Virus record (IMG/VR): IMGVR_UViG_3300024239_000005
Span: 1-41,977 of that record
Strand: one strand, 5' to 3'
DNA length: 41,977 nt
From: a virus
The translations under genes were made by a program, and so were the position numbers. The first letter of the stretch is position 1. Every line of letters begins with the position of its first letter. The notes beneath the pieces were generated by a model that was not told the origin of the DNA, made no database searches, and was given only the letters and a program-made list of their open reading frames with translations. Below are positions 5,800 to 41,977 of this stretch, piece by piece.

Positions 5800-8216
5800 T
5801 GACGGCCATCCAGCCGACGCCTGAAGACTACGCATTCTCTCGCCTCATAGCCTACGCGGCCTATCAGTGGCCGGCATACCGTGATGCTGCCCACCATCGC
5901 CTCATTGCCAGACACCTTGAAGCCGTAGAGCGCGGAGACATCACGCGTCTGATGATCACGATGCCGCCACGACACGGAAAGGCACTTCATGTCGATACGC
6001 CAATCCCCACAACGGCAGGATGGCGGCGCATCGCTGATTTGAAGGCCGGCGATCAGGTATTCGACGAGAACGGAAAGCCTTGTCAAGTTGTCGCCGTAAG
6101 CGAGATTTGGCGTGGTCGAGAAGTCTACGCCATCACAACGGATGATGGCGACAGGATCATCGCGGACGCCGAGCATGAATGGCTTGTCCGCCTGTGTCGA
6201 AAGAGGCCAGTTTTCAAGGTTAAGACAACGCGTTACCTTGCGGATAGGACTAGCAGCCGAGCAGCAATGGTGCGAGCGCAGTCCCCGCTTGTGTTACCCT
6301 ATGCGGAATTGCCGATAGGCCCATATACGCTTGGAGCATGGTTAGGAGATGGAACATCGCTTGATGGAGCGATTACCTCGCATGTGGACGACCAGCCTTT
6401 CATCAGACAGGCCATCGAAGACGAAGGATTGAAGACGAGTAGCCGCGTGCCGGAAATGCTATTCGGCGTTCTTGGCCTAAAGGCAAGGCTCAAAGCGGCT
6501 GGTCTGATCGGGAACAAGCATATTCCGGAGTCTTATCTGTTCGCAGCCGAAGGCCAGCGGAGGGCTTTGCTTCAAGGCTTGATCGATACTGACGGGTACG
6601 TAGCACCTGATGGTCAGGTCGAGTTCTGCAACAAGAGCAAGTTGCTTGCCTATCAGGTCAAGGAGCTTGTCGCGTCTCTAGGCGTCAAGGCGCAGATAAT
6701 TGAAGGCCGCGCCACCATTGGAGAAAAGGATTGCGGGCCGAAATACCGCGTTATGTTCTACATGGCGGGCGCAGCAAGATTGCCGAGGAAAGCGGCGCGA
6801 TGCCGTGATGGCGTTAAGCAGCCTCATCGGTATTTGCAGAGCATAGAGCCGGTCGGAACGGCTGACACGGTTTGCATACAGGTCGATAGCCCGAGCCATC
6901 TATTTCTATGCGGGCGTTCAATGCTGCCGACGCATAATTCCATGCTCGCCAGCGAGTTCTTCCCTGCGTGGTATCTAGGCCGCAATCCAGATCACTACAT
7001 CGTCACGGCCACGTATGGGCAGGATCTGGCCGACGACTTCGGACGCAAGGTCAAGCGGCAGATCGAAGACCAATCTTTCCAAGCCATCTTTCCTGGCGTC
7101 ACACTGACCAACGACAGCCGGGCATCCAGCCGGTTCAGCGTGGAAGGCTCACAGGGCGGCTACGAGCATTCGACAGCACAACGGGGCGCGTTCTATGCCG
7201 TAGGCGTCGGCGGCCCGCTAACAGGCCGTGGCGCACATCTGTTGCTCATTGATGACCCAGTGAAGAACCGAGAGGAAGCGGAATCCGAAGTCATCCGCAA
7301 GCGCACAAAGGACTGGTACACGTCCACGGCTTACACCCGTCTCATGCCCGGTGGGCGGATAGTCATCATCCAGACCCGATGGCACGAAGACGATTTGACG
7401 GGGTGGCTGTTGAATGAGCATAAGCATGAAGGCTGGACCGTCCTCGATCTTCCTGCCATCAATGATGCTGGTGAAGCTCTGTGGCCCGAGCAATACGACC
7501 TCGACGCCCTGGAGCGCATCAAGCGCGCCTTGCCGCCGCGGGACTGGTCCGCGCTGTATCAGCAAAGGCCGGCACCGGAGACAGGCGACTACTTCAAGCG
7601 CGAATGGATTCACACAGTCGAGAAGCTGCCACCGCGCGAGACCATGCTGGTTTACGGTGGTAGCGACTACGCGGTGACGGCGGACGGCGGCGATTACACG
7701 GTTCATGCCGTCGTCGGGCTTGATCCAGATGGCCGCATGTATCTACTCGACCTATGGCGCGGGCAGGCATCGTCCGATGTGTGGGTGAATACCTTCTGCG
7801 ATCTCGTCATCAAGTGGAAGCCGGTTGGTTGGGCTGAGGAAACAGGCCAGATCCGTAGTGGTGTTGGCCCGTTCCTTGTGCGCCAGATGATGGAGCGTCA
7901 GGCCTACGTCGCCAAGGAGACGTTCGCCACTCGCGGGGACAAGGCCATTCGTGCGCAGTCGATCCGTGGCCGCATGGCGCTGTCTGGGCTGTATGTGCTC
8001 AGTGACGCGCCGTTCCTGTCAGATCTCATCTCGGAAATGATGAGTTTCCCGGTAGGTGTGCATGACGATCAGGTAGACGCTCTAGGTCTTGTCGGTCAAT
8101 TGATTGATCGCATGAGTTATGGTAATAAACCAAAGGAAGAAAAGGCAAAGCCAATCTACGCCAATGACGCCGGTCGCGTCATAGCGCCTGCCCTTCCGGG
8201 TGAGAGACGGAGATAG
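5799..8216 (+). CDS. terL: Terminase large subunit (TerL) with intein, 805 aa
   Basis: This is the packaging motor ATPase and nuclease. The Walker A reads MPPRHGK (residues 55-61), is interrupted by a 319-residue intein (62-380), and resumes with S381, giving PPRHGKS after splicing. Later are the Walker B region LLLIDDP and the nuclease region with acidic residues in GGSDYAV and GVHDDQVDAL. The spliced extein would be 486 aa, a normal TerL size. ATG 5799 overlaps the upstream TGA. Before splicing the ATP site is broken, so packaging should depend on intein excision. Confidence 0.95.
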   Translation: MTAIQPTPEDYAFSRLIAYAAYQWPAYRDAAHHRLIARHLEAVERGDITRLMITMPPRHGKALHVDTPIPTTAGWRRIADLKAGDQVFDENGKPCQVVAVSEIWRGREVYAITTDDGDRIIADAEHEWLVRLCRKRPVFKVKTTRYLADRTSSRAAMVRAQSPLVLPYAELPIGPYTLGAWLGDGTSLDGAITSHVDDQPFIRQAIEDEGLKTSSRVPEMLFGVLGLKARLKAAGLIGNKHIPESYLFAAEGQRRALLQGLIDTDGYVAPDGQVEFCNKSKLLAYQVKELVASLGVKAQIIEGRATIGEKDCGPKYRVMFYMAGAARLPRKAARCRDGVKQPHRYLQSIEPVGTADTVCIQVDSPSHLFLCGRSMLPTHNSMLASEFFPAWYLGRNPDHYIVTATYGQDLADDFGRKVKRQIEDQSFQAIFPGVTLTNDSRASSRFSVEGSQGGYEHSTAQRGAFYAVGVGGPLTGRGAHLLLIDDPVKNREEAESEVIRKRTKDWYTSTAYTRLMPGGRIVIIQTRWHEDDLTGWLLNEHKHEGWTVLDLPAINDAGEALWPEQYDLDALERIKRALPPRDWSALYQQRPAPETGDYFKREWIHTVEKLPPRETMLVYGGSDYAVTADGGDYTVHAVVGLDPDGRMYLLDLWRGQASSDVWVNTFCDLVIKWKPVGWAEETGQIRSGVGPFLVRQMMERQAYVAKETFATRGDKAIRAQSIRGRMALSGLYVLSDAPFLSDLISEMMSFPVGVHDDQVDALGLVGQLIDRMSYGNKPKEEKAKPIYANDAGRVIAPALPGERRR
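5982..6938 (+). mobile_element. Class 3 intein with LAGLIDADG endonuclease in TerL
   Basis: Residues 62-380 of TerL. The intein begins with Ala rather than Cys/Ser and ends PTHN before Ser381. Block B holds H126-E-W128. Block F holds C359 in CIQVDSPSHLFLCG, and block G holds T378-H-N380. Trp at B:12, Cys at F:4 and Thr at G:5 form the WCT triplet that defines class 3 inteins, where the block F Cys makes the branched intermediate. A DOD homing endonuclease is present, with motifs LGAWLGDGT (178-186) and LLQGLIDTDG (257-266), so homing activity is plausible. The insertion point is inside the ATP-binding loop, the usual conserved-site choice. Confidence 0.9.
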
Positions 8217-10803: not shown

Positions 10804-10985
10804 CTGAATTCACCAAAGGCGCATCCGTCTTCGTCCATCTCATCGATGGCGATTCCTTCCTTGACGAGTACGTGAAGGACACGGCGGAATTCCACGTGTT
10901 CAAGAAGGCCGGCCGCGTGAAGAAAGATCGCATCCTTCGCATGGGGCTGGATCGCATCGCCAGAGAGCCGGAAGCGGAAAAATGA
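10800..10985 (+). CDS. Hypothetical protein, 61 aa
   Basis: The start overlaps the previous stop. The content is beta-rich then basic (FKKAGRVKKDRILRMGLDRI). No motif was recognised. The stop overlaps the start of the next gene at 10982. Confidence 0.55.
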   Translation: MTEFTKGASVFVHLIDGDSFLDEYVKDTAEFHVFKKAGRVKKDRILRMGLDRIAREPEAEK

Positions 10986-11236
10986 GCAATCTCGGGTGGC
11001 CTGTGAAGGTAGTCCCCAGCGGCGGCATTAAGGTAACGGAAGCGCTGAACGGCCTCGGCGCGCCTTATGTCGAGTCAGATAGAGGCGTGGCTGTCACTTT
11101 CGTTGAAAATGGCGGGTACCCCCTATCAACGGGAATTCCCTTTAGGCGTATCATAAATGGCGTTCTCTGCGAGCGCGTTTCCATTGACGGTGTGTGGGCC
11201 ACCATCGATGGACAGCCGGTTTACATGGAGGTTTGA
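10982..11236 (+). CDS. Hypothetical protein, 84 aa
   Basis: ATG 10982 overlaps the upstream stop. It is glycine- and valine-rich, predicted mostly beta, ending DGQPVYMEV. Its last codons contain the GGAGG ribosome site for the Mtd-like gene at 11239. It could be a small virion or fibre-associated protein, but nothing proves this. Confidence 0.6.
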   Translation: MSNLGWPVKVVPSGGIKVTEALNGLGAPYVESDRGVAVTFVENGGYPLSTGIPFRRIINGVLCERVSIDGVWATIDGQPVYMEV

Positions 11237-11238
11237 TT

Positions 11239-12312
11239 ATGGATATCAGTGCTGGCCTTCTCGGTGACTTCTTCAAGACCAATTCATCCACCGTGTGTTT
11301 TTCCACGGCGGCCGGCGCCGTATCCCTCAATCAGGACATCCGCGTTTCCGTTGGTGGCCTGCTCCGCAAGTATCTGTCCGGAGCGACCGTCGTCCTGCCA
11401 GCGCTTTCGGCCGGCACCGACTATGCGATCTACGCATGCTCCGATGGAACGCTTCAGGCCTCCGCCAACTTCTCAGCGCCGGCTGGCTATACCACAACCA
11501 ACAGCCGGCGCATTGCCGGGTTCCACTATGCCCCCGGCGGCAACGCCACCGGCTACAACACCGGCGGCGACACTACGCCGGCCATCAACCCGTTTTCGAT
11601 CTGGGATCTGAAGTGGCGGCCGGCTTGTCCGGACCCGCGCGGCATGGCGTTGGTGGCCGGGCGATTCTGGGCCGACATCTATCTGTGCGGCACCGACGTG
11701 GACGCCAACGGCACCTCGCGTAACGCCGTGACGATCGGCGATGGCGCAAGCCCGCCGAAGGTGCCGGCCATGTTCGGCGGTGACGGGACCACGACCTATG
11801 GCAGCTTCACCTGGTTCGATGCTGCCGAGCTGATGGCGTCGGCCGGCAAGATGCTGCTGTCCTACGACGAATTCGTCGCGGCGGCATATGGCACCAAGGA
11901 GGCCGTAGCGCGCGGCACAGACGCCGTCACCACTGGTCTTGGCACCAGCAACGCCGGCTCGTCGAATACCGACGTGAAATTCACTTCGAAGTGGGGCCTG
12001 ATGCAGGTGTCGGGCTGCATGCATCAGTGGGGCCGCGAGTTCATCAGCAAACTGGTCGTGCCAGCCGCGCCGGCCGACGCTACCGCGCTGGCGACCAGTA
12101 TCAACGCGTTTGCCGGCCGCGCAAGCACTGAGGGGCGCGGCTCCCTGTATCTGCCAGGTAGTGCCGATGGCATCGCCGCCGCGCGTTTCGGGGCGTCCTG
12201 GGCCAACGGCTCGAACGCGGGTTCGCGCGCGTCGTACTGGTACTACACGCCTTGGAACTCGAACGACGACATCGGGGCTCGCGGCCGCAGTGACCACCTG
12301 TCCCATGTCTAG
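11239..12312 (+). CDS. mtd: Mtd-like receptor-binding protein (DGR variable protein), 357 aa
   Basis: ATG 11239 has GGAGG nine bases upstream. The C-terminal end has the C-type-lectin variable-region pattern of the Bordetella phage BPP-1 major tropism determinant: a Trp/Gly segment, NAGSRASYW, a variable stretch YYTPWNSNDD, then the framework IGARG and DHL just before the stop. Mtd is a trimeric tail-fibre tip that binds the host receptor, and its variable residues are rewritten by a diversity-generating retroelement. The length is close to that of Mtd (about 380 aa by recollection). It is followed directly by an Avd-like gene, as in BPP-1, but no reverse transcriptase was found. Confidence 0.85.
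   Translation: MDISAGLLGDFFKTNSSTVCFSTAAGAVSLNQDIRVSVGGLLRKYLSGATVVLPALSAGTDYAIYACSDGTLQASANFSAPAGYTTTNSRRIAGFHYAPGGNATGYNTGGDTTPAINPFSIWDLKWRPACPDPRGMALVAGRFWADIYLCGTDVDANGTSRNAVTIGDGASPPKVPAMFGGDGTTTYGSFTWFDAAELMASAGKMLLSYDEFVAAAYGTKEAVARGTDAVTTGLGTSNAGSSNTDVKFTSKWGLMQVSGCMHQWGREFISKLVVPAAPADATALATSINAFAGRASTEGRGSLYLPGSADGIAAARFGASWANGSNAGSRASYWYYTPWNSNDDIGARGRSDHLSHV
12174..12309 (+). repeat. DGR variable repeat (VR) candidate
   Basis: This is the last ~136 bp of the Mtd-like gene. It contains clustered NAC-type codons (TAC, TAC, GAC, GAC, AAC) where a template would carry AAC, then a GC-rich run GGGGCTCGCGGCCGC (12276-12290), at the place of the initiation-of-mutagenic-homing site in BPP-1. 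One T interrupts the otherwise all G/C run. The boundary is approximate and no matching template repeat was found by eye. Confidence 0.6.
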
Positions 12313-12649
12313 CCGGCGCGAAAGCGACGGCCATGCCTCGATCGTGAGGGACGAGGTATCGACCTACGAGGCGATGGCGATCGTCGAGAAATACGAATGC
12401 TTTGTCGAATATCTCTATCCGATCCTGCAGAACACGCCGCGAAAGCACGCCATCGCGCGCGACGCAATGTTGACCGCACTGTTCGGCCAGGTCGAGATGT
12501 TCATCAGCGCGGGGAAGTCTCGCCAACCCTCGCGCCTTTATTCCGCCGACGCCATCAGCCGTTTCCTCGGGTCGTGGCTTGGGCATGCCGCCCATGCCGA
12601 CGCCCATCATCTGCTTGCCGGTCTCGGCATCGAAAGGACTGTTTCATGA
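12305..12649 (+). CDS. avd: Avd-like DGR accessory protein, shortened, 114 aa
   Basis: ATG 12305 overlaps the Mtd-like stop. The protein carries VEKYECFVEYLYPILQNTP, RKHAIARDAM, FGQVEMFISAGKS and RLYSADA. These align well with my recollection of Avd from BPP-1, the four-helix-bundle protein that forms a pentamer and partners the reverse transcriptase. After SADA it goes straight to SRFLGSWL, which in Avd lies about 35 residues later, so roughly one helix seems to be missing. The tail is also different. Whether it can still form the barrel or bind an RT is uncertain. The next gene's ATG overlaps its stop, leaving no space for a template repeat or RT here. Confidence 0.75.
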   Translation: MSSRRESDGHASIVRDEVSTYEAMAIVEKYECFVEYLYPILQNTPRKHAIARDAMLTALFGQVEMFISAGKSRQPSRLYSADAISRFLGSWLGHAAHADAHHLLAGLGIERTVS

Positions 12650-12918
12650 CTATCATCATCAACACCCGTGCCGATCTTGAGGCCCTGAAGGGCACCCCGG
12701 ATTATCTGCCGGCGCTGCGCACCATCGCCGGGACCATAGAGATGACGGTGAACACCGCCGAGTATCCAGAGGGGTATGTCGATGTTGGCTATAACGGCCC
12801 GGAAATCGAGCCCACATGGACAAAGGTTGAGACGTTGGAGACCATCCACCTGTTGGGGTTCGCGAGCCGCGCCGAGTTCGACGCCGAATACGCGGCGGCC
12901 ACAGCCGAGGCGGGGTAA
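12646..12918 (+). CDS. Hypothetical protein, 90 aa
   Basis: ATG 12646 overlaps the Avd-like stop. The protein is acidic, with LLGFASRAEFDAEYAAA near the end and a central Trp/Pro segment. No family was recognised. It occupies the position where BPP-1 has the template repeat and reverse transcriptase, but has none of their features. Confidence 0.6.
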   Translation: MTIIINTRADLEALKGTPDYLPALRTIAGTIEMTVNTAEYPEGYVDVGYNGPEIEPTWTKVETLETIHLLGFASRAEFDAEYAAATAEAG

Positions 12919-13362: not shown

Positions 13363-13713
13363 ATGGCATATCGCTGGTATGATCTAGGAAATGGCCGGCA
13401 GGTCTACAGGCGCGTCAGGGACGAAAGCCCCTCGGCGCGTTCTGACCTTCCTACGCCCATGCTGATTCTTGATTTCTCCGAGCCAGTTCAGTCGTGCGCA
13501 GATGGGAAGTGGTACACGTCCAAACGCGACTTGGCCGCTTCTCACCGCGCCAGCGGCAACCCGCACGGCGTTGATTTCATCGAGATCGGCAACGAAAAGC
13601 AGGAGTTTCGCGAGTTTGTTCCCGACGAAGGGAAGCTCATTCGCGACATTCAGGAAGCCAAAGCAGACGTTGAAGCCGGCAGGTTGCCGGAAGTCCTCAC
13701 ACTGGAAGATTGA
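13363..13713 (+). CDS. Hypothetical virion-region protein, 116 aa
   Basis: It starts 3 bases after the previous stop. The sequence includes SDLPTPMLILDFSEPVQSCADGKWYTSK and ends in an acidic helix. Genes of this kind, beginning with a short beta segment and the SD.P.P motif, lie between portal and scaffold in related podophages by my recollection. It may be a structural or assembly protein, but the function is not known. Confidence 0.6.
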   Translation: MAYRWYDLGNGRQVYRRVRDESPSARSDLPTPMLILDFSEPVQSCADGKWYTSKRDLAASHRASGNPHGVDFIEIGNEKQEFREFVPDEGKLIRDIQEAKADVEAGRLPEVLTLED

Positions 13714-15031: not shown

Positions 15032-16042
15032 ATGGCAATCACTTCTGACCGGCAGTACCGGCAGCTCCTGACCGCCGCAGTCGCGAAGCGGTCGCGAGAC
15101 ATCCAGGACATCGTCTACAGCGCCACGCCTCTGACGCGCATTCTCCGCGACCAGGGGCGCATTCAGACCAAGCGAGCCGGCGGCCCGGAGCTTCGCATTC
15201 CCGTCGAGTTCGACAAGCTGACTGCACAGTGGTTCACTGGCTACGATATCATCCAGTTCACCCCGAAGGAGTTGCTCAACTCTGCGGTGTTCAACTGGTC
15301 GCGTGTCGTTGCCCCGTTCTCGCTGAATGGCACCGAGCTTCTTTACACTCGCGGTGAAGAAGAAGTCATCGATCTGATGCAGCACTACGTGCAGTCTGCC
15401 GAAAAGGCGGCCCGCGAGGCGTTTGAAACCGCCATCGTCGGTGACGGAACGGCCAACGGCGGTCGGCAGATGATCGGTTTCGGCGGCGCCATCCCCATCG
15501 TTGCCAATACCGGCACGTATGGCGGCATTGACCGTGCGGAGGTCGCCAACTGGCGCACCACCACCTACACGGTGTCCACCGACTTCAGTGACATCGGCAC
15601 GACCTGGGATTCGACCACGGCTCGCCCGATCATCGAGCGGATCACGCTCAACCGTTCGCGCAACAGCCAGTATCCGGATCTCTGGATCTTCGATGCCAAC
15701 AGCTATCAGGCTGTCTCGGCTTCGTTCGTTGCCCATCAGCGCATTGCAACCGAGCGTTCTGCGCGCCTTGGCTACGCTGGCCTTGCCTACCACACGCCGG
15801 CCGGTCTCGTCGATCTGGTCGCCGCTGGTGGCGTTGGCAACGTCATGCCCGCGAACACCGCGTTCGGCCTCGATACGTCCTCGCTCAGCATCTACACGTT
15901 CCCCGGTCAGGAGTTCGTCCCGTTCCATCCTGGCGACGGTATCCGCCCGGTGAATCAGGATGCGATTGCACAGGGTATCGTGTGGTCTGGCCAGATGGTC
16001 GTCGAGAATCCGCTATTTATGATCAGGTTGGTCACGGCTTAA
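15032..16042 (+). CDS. Major capsid protein, 336 aa
   Basis: It follows the scaffold and has the size and composition of an HK97-fold capsid protein of podophages. Features include an N-terminal helical segment (YRQLLTAAVAKRSRDIQDI), an aromatic and polar core (FKLTAQW-like, FNWSRVVAPFSLNG), a helix rich in Ala/Glu (SAEKAAREAFETAIVGDG), and the late FHPGDGIRPVNQDAIAQG. It is expected to be the most abundant virion protein. The fold is inferred from position and pattern, not a structure. Confidence 0.85.
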   Translation: MAITSDRQYRQLLTAAVAKRSRDIQDIVYSATPLTRILRDQGRIQTKRAGGPELRIPVEFDKLTAQWFTGYDIIQFTPKELLNSAVFNWSRVVAPFSLNGTELLYTRGEEEVIDLMQHYVQSAEKAAREAFETAIVGDGTANGGRQMIGFGGAIPIVANTGTYGGIDRAEVANWRTTTYTVSTDFSDIGTTWDSTTARPIIERITLNRSRNSQYPDLWIFDANSYQAVSASFVAHQRIATERSARLGYAGLAYHTPAGLVDLVAAGGVGNVMPANTAFGLDTSSLSIYTFPGQEFVPFHPGDGIRPVNQDAIAQGIVWSGQMVVENPLFMIRLVTA

Positions 16043-41568: not shown

Positions 41569-41977
41569 ATGATCACCACCACACTGAACCGCATTCGCGA
41601 CAACCATCCCTGCACTGAAGGGTGGACGAAGCTACTTGCCGGGCTTGGCAAGACGAAGGCAGACGGTGAGCCTGTCGCCTACGCTGCAATCCTGCGCATC
41701 AATGGCCTAGACGATGCACTATGGTGCATGCAGGCAGAACCGCAGCATTCTCATTTGTGGCGCATGTTTGCCGTTCGGTGCGCCCGCAAGGTCGAGCACC
41801 TGATGACAGACCAACGCAGCCGAGACGCGATTGATGTTGCCGAGCGCCACGCCAACGGTCAGGCAACTGATGAAGAATTGGCTGCTGCGTGGGATGCTGC
41901 GAGGGCTGCTGCGTGGGCTGCTGCGTGGGATGCTGCGTGGGCTGCTGCGTGGGATGCTGCGTGGGATGCTGCGAGGG
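41569..41977 (+). CDS. N-terminal part of Ala/Trp-repeat protein (continues at 2-103)
   Basis: ATG 41569 has AGGAGAGAG ahead. The first ~100 residues are a globular domain with LNRIRDNHPCTEGWTKLLAG, RINGLDDALWCMQA and AERHANGQATDEELA. This domain is seen, with an Ala/Trp/Arg repeat tail, in many phage hypothetical proteins, to my knowledge without function. From about residue 105 it enters the tetrapeptide repeat [A/D]AA[W/R], likely a long helix with regularly spaced Trp. It runs off the window end and joins to position 23 in frame. Confidence 0.8.
   Translation, partial: MITTTLNRIRDNHPCTEGWTKLLAGLGKTKADGEPVAYAAILRINGLDDALWCMQAEPQHSHLWRMFAVRCARKVEHLMTDQRSRDAIDVAERHANGQATDEELAAAWDAARAAAWAAAWDAAWAAAWDAAWDAAR
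41881..41977 (+). repeat. 12-bp tandem repeat coding for [A/D]AA[W/R]
   Basis: Eight perfect 12-bp units of two or three variants (G[C/A]TGCTGCG[T/A]GG) end the window, and about three and a half more occur at 23-61. The length is a multiple of 3, so unit gain or loss keeps the frame. The repeat spans the circular junction and could vary in copy number between isolates. Confidence 0.85.

Follow-up and report, generated by a model that had tools for sequence, protein, structure and literature searches.

The window analyzed here comprises all 41,977 nucleotides of the IMG/VR record IMGVR_UViG_3300024239_000005 (positions 1–41,977), a single assembled contig of a tailed phage, and contains an mtd gene together with the remains of a diversity-generating retroelement (DGR). 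Comparison with related cassettes makes it very likely that this locus is a degenerate DGR of the BPP-1 type, in which the target has been retained without an engine of its own. The central evidence is a short open reading frame (ORF) after mtd that joins the beginning of avd to the end of a lost reverse transcriptase (RT) gene.

An In-frame Fusion of avd to the End of the RT Gene

An earlier note on this DNA had described the ORF at 12305–12649 as an Avd-like gene. Its N terminus is indeed Avd (Pfam bAvd, 5.9e-15; PDB Bbp7/Avd, 1.5e-23), but the gene is not an intact avd, and its C terminus is a remnant of RT. When the window "Avd" was compared with relatives by tblastn, two match sites were obtained in intact loci, one being Avd and the other the end of the RT gene. 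Against the prophage of Parvibaculum indicum DSM 25305 (L002; L052 is the same sequence), residues 2–92 match Avd (64%) and residues 83–112 match the last 30 residues of RT (53%). With a 50-column hidden Markov model (HMM) built from the RT ends of 25 relatives, the window scores 39.8 bits (E = 2.4e-11), whereas 20 shuffles of the window ORFs do not exceed 12.7 bits and four backbone relatives do not exceed 8.5 bits; a full-length RT HMM matches the ORF only at model positions 295–325 of 329. These two sets of matches and the HMM positions show that the ORF consists of the first ~82 codons of avd joined in frame to the terminal ~32 codons of RT. Measured on L002, the missing stretch is ~1.3 kb long and comprises the 3′ end of avd, the template repeat (TR), the spacer, and ~90% of RT.

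The absence of RT and TR, already claimed in the earlier note, was borne out by profile and repeat searches of the window, which found neither apart from the C-terminal tail of RT. A PF00078 search of the whole record returned no RT match; with the RT HMM from the 25 relatives, only the tail inside the "avd" ORF was matched, the next match having E = 0.88. The variable region (VR) and the BPP-1 TR, used as queries for a TR, match the window only at the VR itself (~12174–12300), with no second copy. Three components of a functional DGR are thus wanting in the window, namely the RT catalytic core, a VR-like template repeat, and a complete Avd.

The gene that follows the fusion is the one that follows RT in intact cassettes. 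The Parvibaculum prophage has the order mtd-avd-TR-RT-bbp4 homolog, and the same gene comes next (66% identical), with its ATG overlapping the RT stop exactly as it overlaps the stop of the window ORF, where the overlap had been correctly noticed before (ATG at 12646). The L002/L052 sequence aligns on both sides of the junction in the window. Deletion of the retroelement, which had been put forward as one of two possibilities, is demonstrated by this scar, in which an Avd N terminus is joined to an RT C terminus and followed by the post-RT gene as in L002 and BPP-1.

The Target Gene, Its VR, and the cis Elements

The proposed Mtd-like gene (11239–12312) proved to be a true mtd homolog, matching Pfam mtd_2nd (5.8e-24), PHROG 11262 (1.8e-112), and the BPP-1 Mtd crystal sequences among the PDB chains (~1e-85). 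Residues 11–354 of the window Mtd align with residues 57–378 of BPP-1 Mtd, including the C-terminal C-type lectin domain that marks the family, and the first N-terminal domain of BPP-1 Mtd has no counterpart in it. Mtd has probably been retained as the receptor-binding protein and presumably still serves as an adhesin. A separate 84-residue ORF of unknown family (10982–11236) precedes mtd and may replace the virion-attachment part.

The TRs of L002 and L005, another intact DGR locus, served as proxies for the phage's own TR. Relative to the L002 TR, the window VR is changed at 12 of 26 adenine sites and 15 of 94 other sites (p = 0.002), and relative to the L005 TR at 8 of 23 and 12 of 89, respectively (p = 0.02). 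When the VRs of all intact loci were compared with their own TRs, 46% of adenines and 1.9% of non-adenine bases were changed (some loci were fetched twice and counted twice), from which it follows that the method recognizes DGR products. Judged against the proxies, the window VR still bears the imprint of adenine mutagenesis. The VR is also 73% identical to the BPP-1 TR and 67% to the BPP-1 VR; we did not take this to indicate reversion, because VRs should in any case resemble a TR more closely than they do one another.

Both cis requirements of the target, the initiation of mutagenic homing (IMH) element and the hairpin (Guo et al. 2011, PMC3240598), are present in the window, the latter as a downstream GRNA-loop inverted repeat, read from the sequence and containing one mismatch. 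The mismatch was considered as a sign of decay and rejected, as the intact loci L005, L023, L093, and L107 have similar internal purine mismatches.

Table 1. Features of the degenerate DGR locus and its surroundings (window coordinates)
Feature	Position	Strand	Remarks
Small ORF upstream of mtd	10982..11236	+	Last 33 codons shared (67%) with the pre-mtd ORF of Parvibaculum prophage L002; left cassette edge
mtd	11239..12312	+	Receptor-binding protein of 357 residues, intact; aligns from residue ~57 of BPP-1 Mtd
VR	12174..12300	+	Compared with the TR of intact L002
IMH-like GC-rich 3′ end of VR	12271..12300	+	30/30 bases the same as in intact DGR locus L005
N-terminal ~82 codons of avd	12305..12556	+	Avd HMM positions 3–90 of 123; alignment with intact Avds; last Avd helix gone
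Inverted repeat CCGGCGC-GAAA-GCGACGG	12313..12330	.	GAAA loop, one G·A mismatch; corresponds to the hairpin/cruciform of the BPP-1 target
Last ~32 codons of the lost DGR RT, with its stop	12545..12649	+	Fused in frame to avd; RT-tail HMM and L002 tblastn
Deletion junction	~12548–12566	+	Within ORF 12305–12649
bbp4 homolog	12646..12918	+	IINTRxDLxAL family; overlaps the RT stop in intact cassettes; right cassette edge

Genome Completeness and Origin of the Cassette

Both ends of the window consist of a 12-bp coding tandem repeat (1–63 and 41883–41977) with an exact overlap of 23 bp. The gene halves found there join in frame into a single protein, which makes a circular and nearly complete genome very probable. 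The earlier statement that the ends overlap and little is missing was therefore reasonable. The protein of the gene split by the contig ends contains a repeat rich in alanine and tryptophan (AAWDAARAAAW...), built from 12-bp units.

A portal-protein search of IMG/VR gave no phage relatives, whereas a capsid search did. Window-like portal, capsid, and tail genes are found in G003, G004, G006, and G008 (capsid 82–84% identical), and no mtd lies between the portal gene and the ORF at 13363 in these four. The cassette has its left edge inside the ORF upstream of mtd and its right edge after the bbp4 homolog. This arrangement is most simply read as a cassette that was acquired by horizontal exchange and has decayed since. 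Genome searches around Parvibaculum at the order and class levels (40 and 385 genomes) yielded no further Mtd. The Mtd matches in records labeled "Escherichia phage T7" were set aside as engineered T7-Mtd chimeras, LR745708 being annotated as such. A contig from another metagenome (L055, sample 3300035670), whose capsid and neighboring proteins are 100% identical to those of the window, ends 45 bases past the scar ORF, a break that might reflect a mixture of intact and deleted genomes.

Recurrent Loss of the DGR Core in Mtd Phages

Our survey of fetched Mtd loci yielded nine different scars, including that of the window. An avd start is followed by RT from position 238 in L085 and L117 and from position 275 in L102, and by the last ~16 RT codons in L031 (E = 3.9e-6); L081 retains a full Avd and then RT from position 273 (E = 1.8e-29), and L034 the RT tail only (E = 1.9e-16). 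A weak case is L006, with the last ~15 RT codons (E = 0.003). Similar remnants occur in cultured phages: in the Synechococcus phages S-CBS1 and S-CBS3 an RT tail stands directly after mtd (E = 2.4e-6 and 1.4e-5), and Marinomonas phage P12026 (L134) has an unannotated Avd remnant at 15720–15872 between mtd and the next gene (E = 1.5e-14). In L003, L011, and L100, a bbp4-like gene follows mtd, and nothing between the two could be recognized convincingly as a remnant.

The differing breakpoints alone suggest that the deletions were independent. On an Mtd tree of 17 lost and 51 intact loci, which was a quick one built on non-random sampling, there are at least 15 changes of label, no fewer than 10 of which are forced by well-supported branches. 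Phages thus seem repeatedly to discard the engine of the DGR and to keep its product. The RT end is preserved in most scars, whether or not it is in frame, and the simplest reason would be that the start of the next gene overlaps the RT stop. Our literature search found no report of RT-tail scars among open-licence papers, a limit that makes the absence a weak one.

A different arrangement was seen in L017 (5772–6384) and L022 (5875–6477), where an antisense HNH endonuclease gene of ~0.6 kb takes the place of avd, TR, and nearly all of RT of L020 (1988–3638), an intact and near-identical locus with flanks 97–100% identical. Judged by eye, HNH-like sequence appears after mtd in L047, L113, and L127–L129 too. 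Homing endonucleases may displace the DGR core at the VR end.

Function of the Remnant and Fate of the VR

Several points weigh against reading the locus as a decayed cassette. No near-identical intact sibling was found, so that the junction and the parental sequence are deduced from a cassette with a 69%-identical Mtd; the fusion keeps the reading frame and contains no stop codon, so that it might still have a function; and the junction is known from one assembly, with the contig L055 ending at ~12694, just before it would reach the scar. The second point could be taken to mean that the Avd′-′RT fusion works as a small protein in its own right, perhaps as a dominant-negative Avd directed against the DGRs of competing phages. 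An AlphaFold2 model of the fusion does show three long helices, but its confidence is modest (mean predicted local distance difference test score 72, predicted template modeling score 0.56) and the last Avd helix is absent. Moreover, the fusion is not recurrent, comparable scars being out of frame (L031, L102, and L117) or unfused (L034 and L081), and retention of the RT end is accounted for by the start of the next gene. We consider a functional fusion very improbable and have taken it as a scar rather than a working gene. The third point raises the question of whether an intact DGR of the real genome was lost from the contig in assembly, given that a single assembled virus record is the source and that VR/TR repeats can confuse assemblers. 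The junction, however, links avd to the RT end and not VR to TR, so that the VR/TR repeat cannot have created it, and similar scars are present in the complete cultured phages S-CBS1, S-CBS3, and P12026, with an identical junction seen twice, in L085 and L117; an assembly artifact is extremely improbable. Homing falls to background in reconstituted BPP-1 assays when RT, Avd, or TR is lost (PMC12875486), and all three are missing or truncated in the window. We infer an inactive remnant and a VR that does not change at present.

Inactivity of the remnant would still allow a phage that has lost its DGR core to have its VR diversified in trans by the RT, TR, and Avd that a co-infecting phage or resident prophage provides, which would make it a satellite user of another phage's DGR. 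BPP-1 lacking avd-TR-brt switches tropism once a plasmid supplies avd-TR-brt (PMC3240598), and the window keeps both the hairpin with its GAAA loop and an IMH identical to that of an intact locus over 30 bases, although such conservation is also expected from a merely recent loss. No donor TR matching the window VR was found, the best (L002 and L005) differing at 12–15 non-adenine sites. For the window itself no close relative covers the VR, but a sister case allows the comparison to be made. L085 and L117, whose mtd genes end at 8076 and 4832 of the reverse complements, have an identical deletion junction. Outside the VR their mtd genes differ by a single SNP (single nucleotide polymorphism), but the VRs show 17 differences, of which 16 fall on adenines in the TR of the near-identical intact locus L088; L117 in turn differs from L088 by one SNP in the compared part of mtd outside the VR and by one in 1238 bp downstream. 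As the sequences at the junction share only the three bases GAA, repeated identical deletions are unlikely, and the L085/L117 VR most probably changed after the deletion, either through retrohoming in trans or through exchange with intact siblings. Loss of RT therefore need not freeze the VR. Recombination with intact siblings explains the L085/L117 pattern equally well, and exchange does occur in the Mtd family, as the HNH-carrying pair L128 and L129 is identical over 5.6 kb before a divergent block and has nearly all of its SNPs in one block of mtd that looks like exchange. For the window, diversification in trans is, on balance, unlikely. The wider proposal that Mtd phages without an RT constitute a class of DGR users, which keep the target site after shedding the core and renew the receptor-binding tip with the RT, TR, and Avd of intact co-infecting relatives, is to our minds quite unlikely.

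The history that we favor, with high confidence, is one of decay. A tailed phage would have received a BPP-1-type cassette (mtd-avd-TR-RT-bbp4 homolog) by horizontal transfer, and one in-frame deletion of ~1.3 kb then removed the 3′ end of avd, the whole of TR and the spacer, and all of RT except the last ~32 codons. Mtd would have been kept as the receptor-binding protein, with a VR previously diversified by the former DGR, and the phage would no longer be able to diversify it on its own. With the IMH and hairpin surviving, new VRs could still be gained from intact relatives through recombination, or from a DGR acting in trans.

Significance and Comparison with Known Systems

DGRs are usually found through their RT, and RT-less loci are consequently overlooked; Roux et al. 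2021 state that their own DGR survey would miss VRs not beside an RT (PMC8144416). Recognizable scars make two questions testable, namely what a DGR costs and whether RT-less phages borrow the DGR of another phage, as the engineered BPP-1 ΔATR can. Pairs such as the intact L088 and the deleted L117, with two SNPs outside the VR over the compared stretches, are natural experiments.

The window phage is a natural counterpart of the laboratory recipient BPP-1 ΔATR (PMC3240598): both keep VR, IMH, and hairpin and lack the core (avd, TR, and brt), but the window carries an avd-RT fusion scar in another phage backbone, and its complementation in trans is hypothetical. The cultured phages S-CBS1, S-CBS3, and P12026 resemble it in having mtd, no annotated DGR RT, and RT-tail or Avd remnants directly after mtd, and differ in their distant Mtds, other breakpoints, and lack of an avd-RT fusion. 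The closest complete cassette is that of the Parvibaculum indicum DSM 25305 prophage (L002/L052), with an Mtd 69% identical and an RT stop over the same next gene; there, unlike in the window, avd, TR, and RT are intact. With the DGR of BPP-1 itself (mtd-avd-TR-brt-bbp4), the window differs in the deletion of the avd 3′ end, TR, spacer, and ~90% of RT and in an Mtd without the first N-terminal domain, whereas it shares the gene order, homologous Mtd, Avd N terminus, RT C terminus, and bbp4, and a VR, IMH, and hairpin in corresponding places.
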